Positions 18,370 through 25,589 of a DNA stretch of 64,000 nt are shown piece after piece. This DNA is from Nocardioidaceae bacterium (GTDB taxonomy: Bacteria > Actinomycetota > Actinomycetes > Propionibacteriales > Nocardioidaceae). The stretch lies in contig JAGIBL010000003.1 in assembly GCA_017744365.1 (NCBI GenBank), positions 124,001 to 188,000 on the forward strand, written 5' to 3'. The translations under genes and the position numbers were made by a program. The notes under the pieces were generated by a model. That model was not told the DNA's origin and ran no database searches. It saw only the letters and a list, made by a program, of their open reading frames with translations. Each line of letters opens with the position of its first letter. The first letter of the stretch is position 1.

Positions 18370-19653
18370 CTAGGGATGCAGTCCGCGCAGCAGGTGAGCC
18401 TCCGCCACGCTGCTCACGGCCAGCGCGGTGGCCGCCCGCCGCAGCGAGAGGCCGTGCGCCTCCGCGTGCCCGAGCACCCGCTCCCAGCCGCGCAGCATCC
18501 GCTCCTCCAGGCGCAGCTCCACCTCGGGTGCGCTCCACCAGTACGCCTGGTTGGCCTGCACCCACTCGAAGTAGGAGACGATCACGCCGCCGGCGTTGGC
18601 CAGGATGTCCGGCACCACCAGCCGCCCGGCGTCCTCGAGGATCCGGTCCGCCTCGGGCGTGGTCGGCCCGTTGGCGCCCTCGACGACCACCTGGGCCCGC
18701 ACCCGCGCGGCGTTCTCCTCGGTGATGACGCCCTCGATCGCGGCCGGGACCAGCAGGTCCACGTCGGCCTCGATCACCTCGGCGCCCGGGACCGCGTCGC
18801 CGCCGGCGAAGCCGACCACAGAGCCGGTCGCGTCCAGGTGCCGCTCCAGGGCGGCGATGTCCAGACCCGTGGCAGCGGCGACGGCGCCGTACTGGTCACT
18901 GACATGGGTGACCCGGACGCCCGCCTCGGCGAGGAAGACCGCGGCGCCGCGGCCGACCTTGCCGAATCCCTGCACCGCCGCCCGCGCCCCTGCCGGCTCG
19001 ATGCCCCGGTGCCGCAGGGCGGCCAGCGCGACGTGGACCACCCCGCGTGACGTCGCGCTGGCCCGTCCCAGGGAGCCGCCGAGCGCCAGCGGCTTGCCGG
19101 TGACCACGCCGAGCACGGTGTGCCCGCGCGCCACCGAGAATGTGTCCATGATCCAGGCCATGGTGCGCTCGTCGGTGCCGACGTCCGGCGCCGGGATGTC
19201 CTGGTCGGGTCCGAGGATCGGCATCACCTCGCTGGTCCAGCGGCGGGTCACCCGCTCGAGCTCGGGCCGGCTGAACGCGCGCGGGTCGATGCGCACCCCG
19301 CCCTTCGCGCCGCCGTACGGGACGTCGAGCAGCGCGCACTTCCAGGTCATCCACATCGCCAGCGCACGGACCTCGTCGAGGGTCACGTCCGGGCTGTAGC
19401 GCAGGCCGCCCTTGGCCGGGCCGCGGGACAGGTTGTGCTGCACCCGGTGGCCGGTGACCACGGTGATGCTGCCGTCGTCGCGGCGCAGCGGCACGCTCAC
19501 CGTCATCTCCCGGCGCGGGGTGGCGAGCATCGCGTAGGTGCCCTCGTCGTAGCCGAGCACGTCGATCGCGTCGCGCAGCTGCACCAGGGCGTCGCGCAGC
19601 GGACCGGTCGCGGTGTCAGGCGCGGAGGCCCGGGCGAGATCGAGCGCGGTCAC
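18370..19653 (-). CDS. Glu/Leu/Phe/Val dehydrogenase (glutamate dehydrogenase type)
   Basis: A 427-residue hexameric-type dehydrogenase. It carries PYGGAKGGVRIDPRAFSRPE with the catalytic Lys, GPDQDIPAPDVGTDERTMAW with the catalytic Asp, and the Rossmann turn VQGFGKVGRG. The 420-residue length fits the short NAD(H)-linked class. Its GTG start overlaps the nitrilase stop by four bases, so it is the last gene of the long catabolic operon. There it could return glutamate formed by the operon's aminotransferase to 2-oxoglutarate and ammonia. That role is inferred. Confidence 0.9.
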   Translation of the reverse strand: MTALDLARASAPDTATGPLRDALVQLRDAIDVLGYDEGTYAMLATPRREMTVSVPLRRDDGSITVVTGHRVQHNLSRGPAKGGLRYSPDVTLDEVRALAMWMTWKCALLDVPYGGAKGGVRIDPRAFSRPELERVTRRWTSEVMPILGPDQDIPAPDVGTDERTMAWIMDTFSVARGHTVLGVVTGKPLALGGSLGRASATSRGVVHVALAALRHRGIEPAGARAAVQGFGKVGRGAAVFLAEAGVRVTHVSDQYGAVAAATGLDIAALERHLDATGSVVGFAGGDAVPGAEVIEADVDLLVPAAIEGVITEENAARVRAQVVVEGANGPTTPEADRILEDAGRLVVPDILANAGGVIVSYFEWVQANQAYWWSAPEVELRLEERMLRGWERVLGHAEAHGLSLRRAATALAVSSVAEAHLLRGLHP

Positions 19654-20474
19654 TGCTGCTCGGCGACCAGGCGGCCGTACAGGTCGGGGCGGCGATCACG
19701 CAGGAACGGCCGGGTCCGGCGCACTCGCGCGATCTGCTCGGGGTCGGCCTCGGCGACCAGTGCCTCCTCCTGGTCCTGCGAGCCCTGCGCCAGCACCTCG
19801 CCGTTGGGCCCGTAGATGGCGCTGAGCCCGAAGTACTCCTTGACACCCTCGACGCCGACGCGGTTGGAGCAGATGACGAACAGGCCGTTGAAGATCGCGT
19901 GCGCGCGCAGCTCGATCTGGAAGACCTCCTTCATCGGCGCGCTCGCCGAGGCCACCGGCACGCAGAGCACCGAGCCGCCGCGCAGCGCGACCACCCGGCT
20001 CAGCTCGGGGAAGTGCCGCTCGTAGCAGATGATCGTGCCCACGCCGACGCCGTTCGCGTCGACCACCTCGGGCTCGGTCGCGCCCGGCCGGAAGTAGAAC
20101 TTCTCCGGAAAGCCGTTGGAGAACGGCAGGTGCGACTTGCGGTAGACCGAGGCGAGCTCGCCGTCGACGTAGGTGCAGGCGGTGTTGAAGTAGGTGCCCG
20201 GGATCGCGCCTTGCTCGAAGACCGAGGAGACCACGGTCATCCCGTGCCGGCGCGAGCGCTCGGCGGCCATCGCGTTGGACGGGCCGTCGAGCGGCTCGGC
20301 GAGCGCGAAGTACTCGGGGTCGGGCTCGGGCTGCACGAACGGGACGGCGAACAGCTCGGGCAGCAGCAGCACGTCCGCGCCCTGCGCGGCGGCCTCGTCG
20401 ATCAGCTCGCCGGCGCGCTCGATGGTCTTGGCGCGGTCGTCGGTGGGCTGCAGCTGGACGGCGGCGAGCTTCAT
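19650..20474 (-). CDS. Nitrilase-superfamily hydrolase, probable N-carbamoyl-beta-alanine amidohydrolase type
   Basis: A 274-residue carbon-nitrogen hydrolase with the Glu-Lys-Cys triad in LLPELFAVPF, YRKSHLPFSNG and IICYERHFPE. The start MKLAAVQLQPTDD follows a clear GGAGGAG. Sequences of this type are annotated as beta-ureidopropionase or N-carbamoylputrescine amidase. In an operon with dihydropyrimidinase the expected reaction is N-carbamoyl-beta-alanine (or the methyl analogue) to beta-alanine, CO2 and ammonia. The substrate is not proven; the second nitrilase at 25682 is an alternative for this step. Confidence 0.85.
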   Translation of the reverse strand: MKLAAVQLQPTDDRAKTIERAGELIDEAAAQGADVLLLPELFAVPFVQPEPDPEYFALAEPLDGPSNAMAAERSRRHGMTVVSSVFEQGAIPGTYFNTACTYVDGELASVYRKSHLPFSNGFPEKFYFRPGATEPEVVDANGVGVGTIICYERHFPELSRVVALRGGSVLCVPVASASAPMKEVFQIELRAHAIFNGLFVICSNRVGVEGVKEYFGLSAIYGPNGEVLAQGSQDQEEALVAEADPEQIARVRRTRPFLRDRRPDLYGRLVAEQQ

Positions 20475-21172
20475 GCGGACTCCTCCTGGGGCAGGTCGAA
20501 CAGGCCGGTGAGCGCGACCCCGGCACGGGTCCGGTAGCGCTTGTTGACCGAGATCAGCACCGCGGTGAGCGGTTCGAGCTGGCGGGCCAGCCGCAGCCGG
20601 CCGGCGTCGAGGCCGCGACCGCCGGTGACCGCCTCGGCGAGCCGGATCACCCGTTCCTTGGCGGCCCGGTCGTCGCCGCAGACGAGGACGTCCTCGTGGG
20701 ACAGGTCGATGTCCGGGTCGAGCAGGAGCGGCGCCGCCAGGTGGTGGAAGGCGCCGGTGACCGTCGAGTCCGGCAGCAGCGCGGCGGCCTCCTCGGCGGC
20801 ACTGCCGGCCTCCACGGCCAGGCCGAACGGGCCGAGCTTGTCGAAGCCGAGCGGGTTGACGCAGTCGACGACGAGCTTGCCGGCCAGGTCGCCGGCGAGC
20901 TCGGTGAGCAGGGCCGCGTGCCCGTCGTACGGGACGGCCACGACGACCACGTCGGCGGCCTGGACCGCGGCCCGGTTGGTGGTGCCGCACAGGGTGCCCG
21001 CGGAGGCGCCCGGGAGCGCGGCCAGCTCGGCGGCGACCTCGGTGCCGCGGGCCTGATCGCGCGAGCCGAGCACGACCGCGTAGCCGGCCCGGGCCAGCCG
21101 GTAGCCGATGCCGCGGCCCTGCGGACCGGTGCCGCCGAGGATGGCGATGCGGGCAGCGATGCTGTGGTCCAC
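20471..21172 (-). CDS. NADPH-dependent F420 reductase (Fno/NpdG type)
   Basis: A 233-residue Rossmann protein. ARIAILGGTGPQGRGIGYRL followed by VLGSRD resembles Fno, where GGTGxQG and the SR pair select NADP. GTG 21172 lies six bases after the LLM gene stop, and the gene ends in a four-base overlap with the nitrilase gene. The family passes hydride between NADPH and F420; NpdG supplies reduced F420 for ring hydrogenation in picrate degraders. Placed directly behind an F420-type LLM oxidoreductase, it probably regenerates F420H2 for it. Confidence 0.82.
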   Translation of the reverse strand: MDHSIAARIAILGGTGPQGRGIGYRLARAGYAVVLGSRDQARGTEVAAELAALPGASAGTLCGTTNRAAVQAADVVVVAVPYDGHAALLTELAGDLAGKLVVDCVNPLGFDKLGPFGLAVEAGSAAEEAAALLPDSTVTGAFHHLAAPLLLDPDIDLSHEDVLVCGDDRAAKERVIRLAEAVTGGRGLDAGRLRLARQLEPLTAVLISVNKRYRTRAGVALTGLFDLPQEESA

Positions 21173-25021: not shown

Positions 25022-25031
25022 CGCGCTCGGC

Positions 25032-25589
25032 TCACTTGGTCTCGGCGCCGAACGTCGCCAGCCGGGCCAGCGGACGGCCGGTGTTGGCGGCGGCGCAGAC
25101 CACGAAGATCTCCCGCGGCCGGGGCACGTCGGCGACCTGCAGCGTGACCGTCTGGTGGTGCGAGCGGGTCTTGGCGTCGAGCTTGTGCTTGAGCGCGATG
25201 TCGATGGGGGCGCCCGGGAGGCCGACCTTCTCGGCGGCCGGGAGGAGCTCGGTGCCGCCGGCAGCGTCGCGGAAGACGTTGCCGAAGCGCAGGTTGTGGA
25301 TCAGCGCGGAGCCGTGCTCGAGCTCGCCGTCGATGCCGACGAGGGCGGCCTTGCCGAAGGCCTCGACCTCGGCGCCGAGCAGCTTCACGCACGCCGGCCC
25401 GACCAGCATGCCGATCTCCTCGCCGATCGCGTCGGCGAGGGTGACCAGGTCCTGCACGTACTCGCTCGGGTAGGGGTTCTCGATCACCGCGCCGACGAAC
25501 GCCACCCGGTGCACCGGGTTGACCTCCTGGCCGTTCTCCAGATGGGTCTCCTCGAGGTGATGGACCATCTTGCGGACCCGGACACTCAT
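25032..25589 (-). CDS. Amino acid synthesis family (DUF1185-like) protein
   Basis: A 185-residue protein recognised as the AA_synth/DUF1185 type by text such as FVGAVIENPYPSEYVQDLV, ALVGIDGELEHGSALIHNLR and DIALKHKLDAKTRSHHQTVT. These proteins are single-domain, cytoplasmic and of unproven function, but are often found beside amidohydrolases and pyrimidine or hydantoin genes. It is first in the operon, just behind the promoter with the TGAACC-N3-GGTTCA operator. Three His and several acidic residues are conserved-looking and might bind metal or substrate. Confidence 0.75.
   Translation of the reverse strand: MSVRVRKMVHHLEETHLENGQEVNPVHRVAFVGAVIENPYPSEYVQDLVTLADAIGEEIGMLVGPACVKLLGAEVEAFGKAALVGIDGELEHGSALIHNLRFGNVFRDAAGGTELLPAAEKVGLPGAPIDIALKHKLDAKTRSHHQTVTLQVADVPRPREIFVVCAAANTGRPLARLATFGAETK

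Follow-up and report, generated by a model that had tools for sequence, protein, structure and literature searches.

A putative F420-dependent first step for reductive pyrimidine breakdown in a gene cluster of a Nocardioidaceae bacterium

Reduction of the uracil or thymine ring, which in humans is the step that clears 5-fluorouracil, is the first step of the reductive (PydA/PreTA) pathway of pyrimidine breakdown. Uracil can also be attacked by RutA, an LLM-family enzyme that uses flavin mononucleotide (FMN) for an oxidative ring opening, while Mer (methylenetetrahydromethanopterin reductase) is known for hydride transfer from F420H2. Closely related reports include a ferredoxin variant, PydAc, of the dihydropyrimidine dehydrogenase of the reductive pathway (PMC7332683), a putative F420/FMN oxidoreductase, SSGG-03002/NpsU, that is genetically needed for the reduction of the uracil C5-C6 bond in dihydro-mureidomycin/napsamycin biosynthesis (PMC10714638), and a putative F420-dependent LLM yanthine reductase, which is put forward as an untested proposal for a reductive uric acid pathway of Chloroflexota (PMC12507026). 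Here we describe a gene cluster in a stretch of 64,000 nucleotides from a Nocardioidaceae bacterium (contig JAGIBL010000003.1, positions 124,001 to 188,000; this whole stretch is called the window, and coordinates refer to it). Its LLM-family protein is probably a dihydropyrimidine dehydrogenase that depends on F420 and has no relation to PydA/PreA, and with the locus as a whole the cell would import uracil and/or thymine and break them down reductively. A search of the open-access literature (with few subscription papers, and preprints not searched as such) gave, among the matches listed, no title or abstract describing the breakdown of pyrimidines by way of F420, and we regard the locus as a novel version of an established pathway in which a non-homologous enzyme would carry out the first step.

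The core of the locus is a run of seven tightly packed genes, all on the minus strand, from position 25589 down to 18370, with intergenic gaps of at most 27 nt and a 4-nt overlap at two junctions when the likely starts of NpdG and the small carbon-nitrogen hydrolase are used. This is a real operon, and its arrangement is not due to chance, because it recurs in loci of Actinomycetota and Chloroflexota. It begins with an AA_synth protein (PF06684, formerly DUF1185; 25032..25589; 175 bits, cut-off 27), followed by a class-III aminotransferase (23654..25021; Aminotran_3, PF00202, 334 bits, cut-off 30.5), a dihydropyrimidinase (22196..23626; TIGR02033, 486 bits over an equivalog cut-off of 393), the LLM-family F420-type oxidoreductase (21178..22185; Bac_luciferase, PF00296, 220 bits), an NADPH-dependent F420 reductase of the NpdG/Fno type (20471..21202, likely start near 21172; TIGR01915, 199 bits over an equivalog cut-off of 150), a carbon-nitrogen hydrolase (19650..20507, likely start near 20474; CN_hydrolase, PF00795, 179 bits) and a glutamate dehydrogenase (18370..19653; PF00208/PF02812). 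The Pfam and NCBIfam assignments agree with the families that an initial annotation, made from the sequence alone, had given to these seven genes. Both the dihydropyrimidinase typical of the Pyd pathway and the NADPH:F420 reductase are thus present at equivalog level.

In the proposed pathway, an ABC (ATP-binding cassette) transporter encoded upstream would take up uracil and/or thymine, NpdG would make F420H2 from NADPH, and the LLM enzyme would use F420H2 as the hydride donor for C6 of the pyrimidine, yielding a 5,6-dihydropyrimidine whose ring the dihydropyrimidinase would open. The carbon-nitrogen hydrolase of the operon, for which N-carbamoylputrescine amidase is the nearest NCBIfam model and which reaches no equivalog cut-off, would act as a beta-ureidopropionase, splitting the N-carbamoyl-beta-amino acid with release of CO2 and NH3. 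The best PDB match of the aminotransferase is a taurine:2-oxoglutarate aminotransferase (6jix, E 2.3e-109), a likeness in keeping with a beta-amino acid as donor and with the presence of glutamate dehydrogenase inside the operon; the enzyme is predicted to be a beta-alanine:2-oxoglutarate aminotransferase, with 2-oxoglutarate as acceptor of the amino group. Glutamate dehydrogenase (no NCBIfam equivalog cut-off reached) would then release this group as ammonium and regenerate 2-oxoglutarate, and an aldehyde dehydrogenase encoded upstream would remove malonate (or methylmalonate) semialdehyde. The AA_synth protein possibly helps to dispose of the semialdehyde in a TgnF-like manner: a remark on TgnF/HcdD notes AA_synth homologues in the catabolism of other ring compounds (PMC7913881), while the structural description of the family (PMC2954203) assigns it no function.

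The LLM protein belongs to PF00296 and not to PF01180, and so is no canonical PydA/PreA. Its nearest named subfamily is Mer; membership in Mer proper was rejected, as it scores 169 bits against a cut-off of 349 (TIGR03555). The nearest sequence in the PDB is likewise a Mer (1z69, E 2.5e-43), and with an AlphaFold model of the protein (pLDDT 90.9) Foldseek matches 1-8 are all Mer and 9-13 are other F420 enzymes, with FMN monooxygenases ranking lower. The PDB sequence search agrees, F420 enzymes again leading, and the closest solved relatives (Mer, FGD, Adf) bind F420. Clade-specific residues (the clades are described below) include G10, G38, V165, D183 and F184, which are candidates for substrate choice.

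A set of 79 related loci was assembled as the best-scoring of 311 candidates from named genomes, retrieved by means of two peptide patterns, both from one LLM protein; it is not a random sample, and many of the loci end at contig ends. The set divides into 45 loci of the window's own clade and 34 of a sister clade, and counts of LLM genomes refer to 44 genomes plus the host's own, with locus L026 left out. Neighbouring genes were scored by tblastn on the same strand at E 1e-10. Open reading frame calls in the relatives are crude and sometimes on the wrong strand, and tblastn or hmmscan underlies every family claim unless stated otherwise. In a maximum-likelihood tree of 82 LLM proteins a single branch parts 48 from 34 with support of 100/100; this is a supported bipartition of an unrooted tree in which long branches meet at the split, and its groups had been labelled by neighbourhood beforehand, with four Nocardioides loci and two short-contig loci placed in the dihydropyrimidinase group. 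A second tree, including RutA and two distant paralogues from the host genome, was set aside for the clade claim, since these long branches fell inside the tree.

The two clades differ sharply in their neighbours. Dihydropyrimidinase accompanies the LLM gene in 39/45 own-clade loci against 0/34 sister loci, the aminotransferase in 43/45 against 0/34, and AA_synth and the NMT1 binding protein in 29/45 each, again against none of the 34. Carbon-nitrogen hydrolase is found in 43/45 versus 9/34, or, at an identity of at least 40%, in 37/45 versus 0/34. The six own-clade loci without dihydropyrimidinase are the four from Nocardioides together with L026 and L046, which lie on short or truncated contigs. 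Apart from the host genome, glutamate dehydrogenase is linked in only 3/45 related loci. The own clade extends over Actinomycetota and nine metagenome-assembled genomes (MAGs) of Chloroflexota, whose LLM proteins are 40-44% identical to that of the window. Within the host's family the LLM gene occurs in 8/341 genomes (E 1e-90, own included), a rarity that would be expected of an accessory operon.

The ordinary first enzymes were searched for directly. The DHO_dh family has one strong, PyrD-like match and one short weak match in the host genome, an Escherichia coli PreA query finds there only a weak PyrD-like stretch, and the model NF006183 scores 42 bits against a cut-off of 335. No dihydropyrimidine dehydrogenase gene lies in the operon, as the initial annotation had stated, none was seen under the operator that it shares with the genes upstream, and a genome-wide search found none elsewhere at the family cut-off. 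The counter-evidence that the initial annotation had named, a canonical enzyme elsewhere in the genome under this operator, was thus looked for and not found. None of 16 LLM-bearing genomes (own included) exceeds the NF006183 cut-off, against 2/14 control genomes that pass. With E. coli PreA, the best match in the 44 LLM genomes reaches 104 bits and 34% identity over residues 101-322, and no single match there extends over the FMN part as well as the C-terminal one. The RutA route was rejected for the host genome, in which TIGR03612 reaches at best 62 bits against its cut-off of 498. Plasmid-borne PreA is found in 62 records of several phyla at E 1e-60, with scores of at least 278 bits among the matches listed (best 30 of 62), and PreA was found in 0/394 genomes of the window's class (E 1e-40, in a scan without a positive genome of its own); this class may generally be without an ordinary dihydropyrimidine dehydrogenase. 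The mutual exclusion of PreA and the LLM gene was dropped as evidence, because its absence from all 394 genomes of the class makes its absence from LLM genomes uninformative alone. The test for exclusion of preA that the initial annotation suggested accordingly carries little weight.

Genes for F420 biosynthesis, counted by tblastn and with family profiles for five of the proteins, are found in the fetched flanks of 11/45 own-clade loci, belonging to five genera, and of 0/34 sister loci. In five Streptomyces loci (L017-L020, L023) FbiC comes after the carbon-nitrogen hydrolase and before the transporter where the locus extends that far (1469 bits in L017, cut-off 1018), in L026 CofC and FbiC come after the carbon-nitrogen hydrolase, and L028, also from Streptomyces, has no flanking F420-biosynthesis gene. 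FbiA, FbiB and CofC (84 bits, below the cut-off of 105) flank the Leucobacter cluster, and FbiC flanks those of Arthrobacter, where the locus end cuts it, and Microbacterium. In Aeromicrobium flavum the flanks hold CofD/FbiA (320 bits over 257), a piece of FbiB at the locus edge, a CofC-like stretch and a CofGH of 742 amino acids that scores 900 against 1018 bits, its CofG domain reaching 457 over 213. The host itself can make F420 as judged from its genome, with CofG (466 bits) and CofD (392 bits) both over cut-off, and CofG is over cut-off in 30/45 LLM genomes, some Streptomyces among them having several strong CofG matches. CofD was searched for in the 15 genomes without CofG and in two others.

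Upstream of the operon, the minus strand continues with a second carbon-nitrogen hydrolase (NIT2; 25682..26482, true start probably near 26527; PF00795, 163 bits), an aldehyde dehydrogenase resembling succinate-semialdehyde dehydrogenase (26530..28071; PF00171, 552 bits; TIGR01780, 574 bits against a cut-off of 646), which we take as the probable malonate semialdehyde dehydrogenase, and an IclR-family regulator (28093..28884; PF09339 and PF01614). These are followed, on the same strand, by the ABC transporter genes for an NMT1/THI5-like substrate-binding protein (29013..30173; PF09084, 127 bits), a permease (30212..31036), an ATPase (31036..31839) and a second permease (31865..32815). Between the genes for the binding protein and the regulator lies a 17-nt inverted repeat (28944-29002) with arms 94% complementary and 25 nt apart, which is terminator- or attenuator-like in appearance; apart from this repeat, a generic search for inverted repeats gave no useful lead.

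An operator of the pattern TGAACC-N3-GGTTCA-N5-TGAACCA, TGAACCAACGGTTCACACAATGAACCA, is found as an exact match on the minus strand at 25605..25631, 15 nt upstream of the AA_synth start, where it overlaps a promoter-like TTGACG...AATATT; a second copy with one mismatch (32869..32895, minus strand) precedes the ABC transporter operon. One hundred shuffled versions of the window gave no match at up to 3 mismatches. In the 4.76-Mb genome the same tolerance returns the two window sites, an overlapping reverse reading of the second site and one poor match elsewhere, and a reversed control pattern has no match at all; the only two convincing operator sites of the genome are thus both in this region. 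The core TGAACC-N3-GGTTCA has 9 exact matches in 817 kb from the 45 own-clade loci versus none in 504 kb from the 34 sister loci, which hold two one-mismatch matches. At up to one mismatch it precedes AA_synth in loci of Micromonospora, Dactylosporangium, Streptomyces, Rhizohabitans, Microbispora, Nocardioides, Arthrobacter and Gordonia desulfuricans, and it stands ahead of the LLM gene in 3/4 Nocardioides loci; with one mismatch it lies ahead of transporter genes in four Streptomyces loci, and an exact copy is closely upstream of an NCS1 permease in an Agrococcus locus (L039). It was not found at this tolerance in the nine Chloroflexota loci or in L026, L028, L035, L036, L038, L040-L043, L045 and L046. 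The seven genes stand as the initial annotation described them, and the limits of the unit do not: it is larger than first described, because the same-strand genes at 25682-32815 have the operator in common with the operon. Transport and catabolism look like one regulon, and the IclR regulator, a candidate binder of the operator, probably acts at this shared site.

How closely this unit resembles a known pathway can be seen from five PreTA clusters, hand-picked for annotation and phylum spread from the best 30 of the 62 plasmid records with PreA, on plasmids of Azospirillum, Cytobacillus, Thalassospira, Deinococcus and Burkholderia. Dihydropyrimidinase (hydA) is present in four of them, 37-43% identical to that of the window, and absent from the Thalassospira stretch examined. 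Two clusters (L113, L114) hold a nitrilase 34-35% identical to the operon's carbon-nitrogen hydrolase, an aminotransferase 35-36% identical to its counterpart and an aldehyde dehydrogenase at 29-31%, and the Deinococcus cluster (L115) has a whole ABC transporter, whose ATPase is 59%, binding protein 33% and permeases 40% (30212..31036) and 38% (31865..32815) identical to those of the window. Some of the nitrilase, aminotransferase, aldehyde dehydrogenase, ABC, NCS1 and carbamoylase-type genes are found in each of the five; a Zn-dependent or carbamoylase-type hydrolase is present in four (Azospirillum, Thalassospira, Deinococcus, Burkholderia), whereas the window cluster is without one. The window locus looks like a Pyd cluster in which PreTA has been swapped for the LLM protein and NpdG. 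Own-clade relatives add clues to the substrate: the Aeromicrobium locus L045 encodes a deaminase that is nearest to yeast-type cytosine deaminases over nearly its full length (131 bits, versus 69 for the best tRNA deaminase), and an NCS1 permease (PF02133, TIGR00800, tblastn) is present in the Gordonia desulfuricans, Arthrobacter and Agrococcus loci (L027, L029, L039).

The sister clade has a purine-type setting, with an XdhD-like gene in 23/34 loci and an SsnA-like gene in 15/34; these are tblastn matches to E. coli proteins at 22-40% identity, and 'XdhD-like' denotes the wider family. Neither is matched in any of the 45 own-clade loci, and YgfK is found in 0/34 sister loci. The sister clade is probably the enzyme type of the yanthine reductase proposal (PMC12507026), and judging by their neighbours both clades appear to occupy the place in which one would look for the reductase of a uracil-like ring. 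Taken with the F420 gene linkage in five genera, the lead of F420 enzymes among the model matches and the partners shared with PreTA clusters, this speaks for the proposal of the initial annotation that the LLM enzyme reduces the ring with F420H2 regenerated by NpdG; most of the tests support it and none refutes it.

Several observations weigh against this interpretation. NpdG is linked in just 16/45 own-clade loci (15 at an identity of at least 40%), versus 1/34 in the sister clade. CofD is over cut-off, yet CofG is not, in 13 of the 15 CofG-less genomes (nine Chloroflexota MAGs, both Leucobacter, Ruicaihuangia and Nocardioides marmoriginsengisoli, the named ones being the genomes of L030, L031, L036 and L011), which suggests that F420 is made either from scavenged FO or with an FO synthase of divergent sequence, and two of the 45 LLM genomes, Agrococcus (L039) and a 1.3-Mb MAG (L046), have neither at cut-off. 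CofD is in any case over cut-off in 128/299 genomes of the Leucobacter family; at this base rate F420 capability is only suggestive and was dropped as a contrast, and the case rests on the F420 gene linkage. The carbon-nitrogen hydrolase of the operon and the aldehyde dehydrogenase stay below every equivalog cut-off for the activities given to them here, and enzymes of the dihydropyrimidinase family also act on hydantoins. The cofactor is assigned by homology, which is not proof, as LLM enzymes also bind FMN. More generally, the argument is built from sequence evidence. A further difficulty comes from the four named Nocardioides loci (L011-L013, L044), which have a thiamine diphosphate (ThDP) enzyme, acetolactate-synthase-like, in the slot of the dihydropyrimidinase, between the aminotransferase and LLM genes, with no dihydropyrimidinase there; six relatives (L104-L109), possibly in part the same genomes, share the arrangement. 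Despite this, the Nocardioides LLM proteins are 86-89% identical to that of the window. In L011 and L044 peptide-type ABC permeases and a crotonase-like gene lie upstream (read from the sequence by eye, not by family search), and L044 has on its opposite strand an amidohydrolase nearest to allantoinase and a carbon-nitrogen hydrolase, both below equivalog cut-offs. In Nocardioides, either the route after ring reduction differs or the substrate does.

These variants bear on the possibility that the LLM protein does reduce a ring with F420H2, but that of another N-heterocycle, such as a uracil substituted at C5, a ring of the hydantoin type, or a heterocycle of plant or xenobiotic origin, with the dihydropyrimidinase and hydrolase acting on its dihydro-product. 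Dihydropyrimidinases and hydantoinases are one family, D-hydantoinases head the match list of the window's enzyme, and the ThDP loci, two of them with peptide-type permeases and crotonase, fit a different substrate, as do the AA_synth homologues from the catabolism of other ring compounds (PMC7913881). Such a substrate is nonetheless unlikely, given the cytosine deaminase and NCS1 permeases in related loci, the similar partners in PreTA clusters and the purine-type settings of the sister clade.

It is very improbable that the protein is instead an FMN-dependent, RutA-like oxygenase or other flavin enzyme, with NpdG serving something else. Many LLM enzymes are indeed FMN monooxygenases, and two LLM genomes are without both F420 genes tested; the nearest structures and sequences, however, are F420 enzymes, no flavin reductase is among the operon families, NpdG lies within the operon, F420-biosynthesis genes are linked, and a ring-opening oxygenase would leave the dihydropyrimidinase without a role. 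There is equally little to be expected from a model in which the LLM enzyme works in reverse or at another step (e.g. oxidising a hydroxy acid with F420, so that NpdG makes NADPH) and an unrecognised enzyme reduces the ring. The F420 enzymes of the family do include the dehydrogenases FGD and Adf, and an NDMA-type alcohol dehydrogenase is present in some clusters, but no other reductase candidate recurs in the clusters examined (with gene-by-gene listings for 11 loci), an aldehyde dehydrogenase is already at hand in the window for the semialdehyde step, and the LLM protein and NpdG occupy the place of PreTA in otherwise similar clusters. Reduction of uracil and/or thymine by the LLM enzyme with F420H2 is thus the interpretation preferred here.

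Some further features of these loci can be recorded. Two tandem LLM genes, 49-51% identical to that of the window, are found in L045 (10001-12108) and in L110/L111, and are perhaps uracil and thymine versions. Two LLM/dihydropyrimidinase clusters, one from each sub-branch, lie side by side in L032 (3813-16600), and the second of these carries an M81/MlrC metallopeptidase and a carboxymuconolactone-decarboxylase-like gene. In the nine loci from Chloroflexota, a small gene of the latter family likewise lies close upstream of the LLM gene (L047:9455-9862), and homologues occur in 15/45 own-clade loci. In the window itself, a 75-bp tandem repeat with two exact copies and most of a third occupies the intergenic region beside the operon end (18128-18342), and short direct repeats are found at 34458-34661.

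If the assignment is right, uracil and thymine undergo their textbook reduction by a second kind of enzyme as well, one that is structurally unrelated to the first and in which F420 replaces FMN and iron-sulfur clusters. It would (i) fill the first step of the reductive pyrimidine pathway in a class for which the scan described above found PreA in none of 394 genomes, (ii) assign a role to enzymes that at present carry the label methylenetetrahydromethanopterin reductase or LLM oxidoreductase and (iii) make the published purine counterpart directly testable. A broader generalisation, to which we give an even chance, is that this Mer-like LLM branch is a general set of F420H2-dependent enzymes that dearomatise rings of the uracil type, its pyrimidine clade working with dihydropyrimidinase and its purine clade with SsnA and XdhD-like proteins, each in place of a reductase of the dihydroorotate dehydrogenase (DHOD) or YgfK type; some CofD-only hosts (Leucobacter, Ruicaihuangia, one Nocardioides and the nine Chloroflexota MAGs) may then use scavenged FO, and their use of uracil would hang on a neighbour's deazaflavin.

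Compared with the described systems, the locus is set apart from the Rut pathway, which has no dihydropyrimidinase step, and no RutA is over cut-off in this genome. SSGG-03002/NpsU differs in being biosynthetic and in acting on a uridyl peptide antibiotic, and its in-vitro activity was not obtained (PMC10714638). Mer provides the closest solved structures, but at 26-30% identity in structure alignments, with the LLM protein below the family cut-off and in another gene setting. The proposed yanthine reductase is alike in being an LLM F420-type enzyme proposed to stand in for the reductase that acts on the uracil-like half of a purine (PMC12507026), and unlike in its purine setting with SsnA/XdhD, no dihydropyrimidinase being present in the 34 sister loci. 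The PydA/PreTA pathway has in common with the locus the dihydropyrimidinase, the carbon-nitrogen hydrolase, the class-III aminotransferase, the aldehyde dehydrogenase and import by ABC or NCS1 systems, each of them in some of the five PreTA clusters, whereas its FMN/iron-sulfur reductase of the DHOD family is absent here and an unrelated LLM protein with an NADPH:F420 reductase stands in its place.

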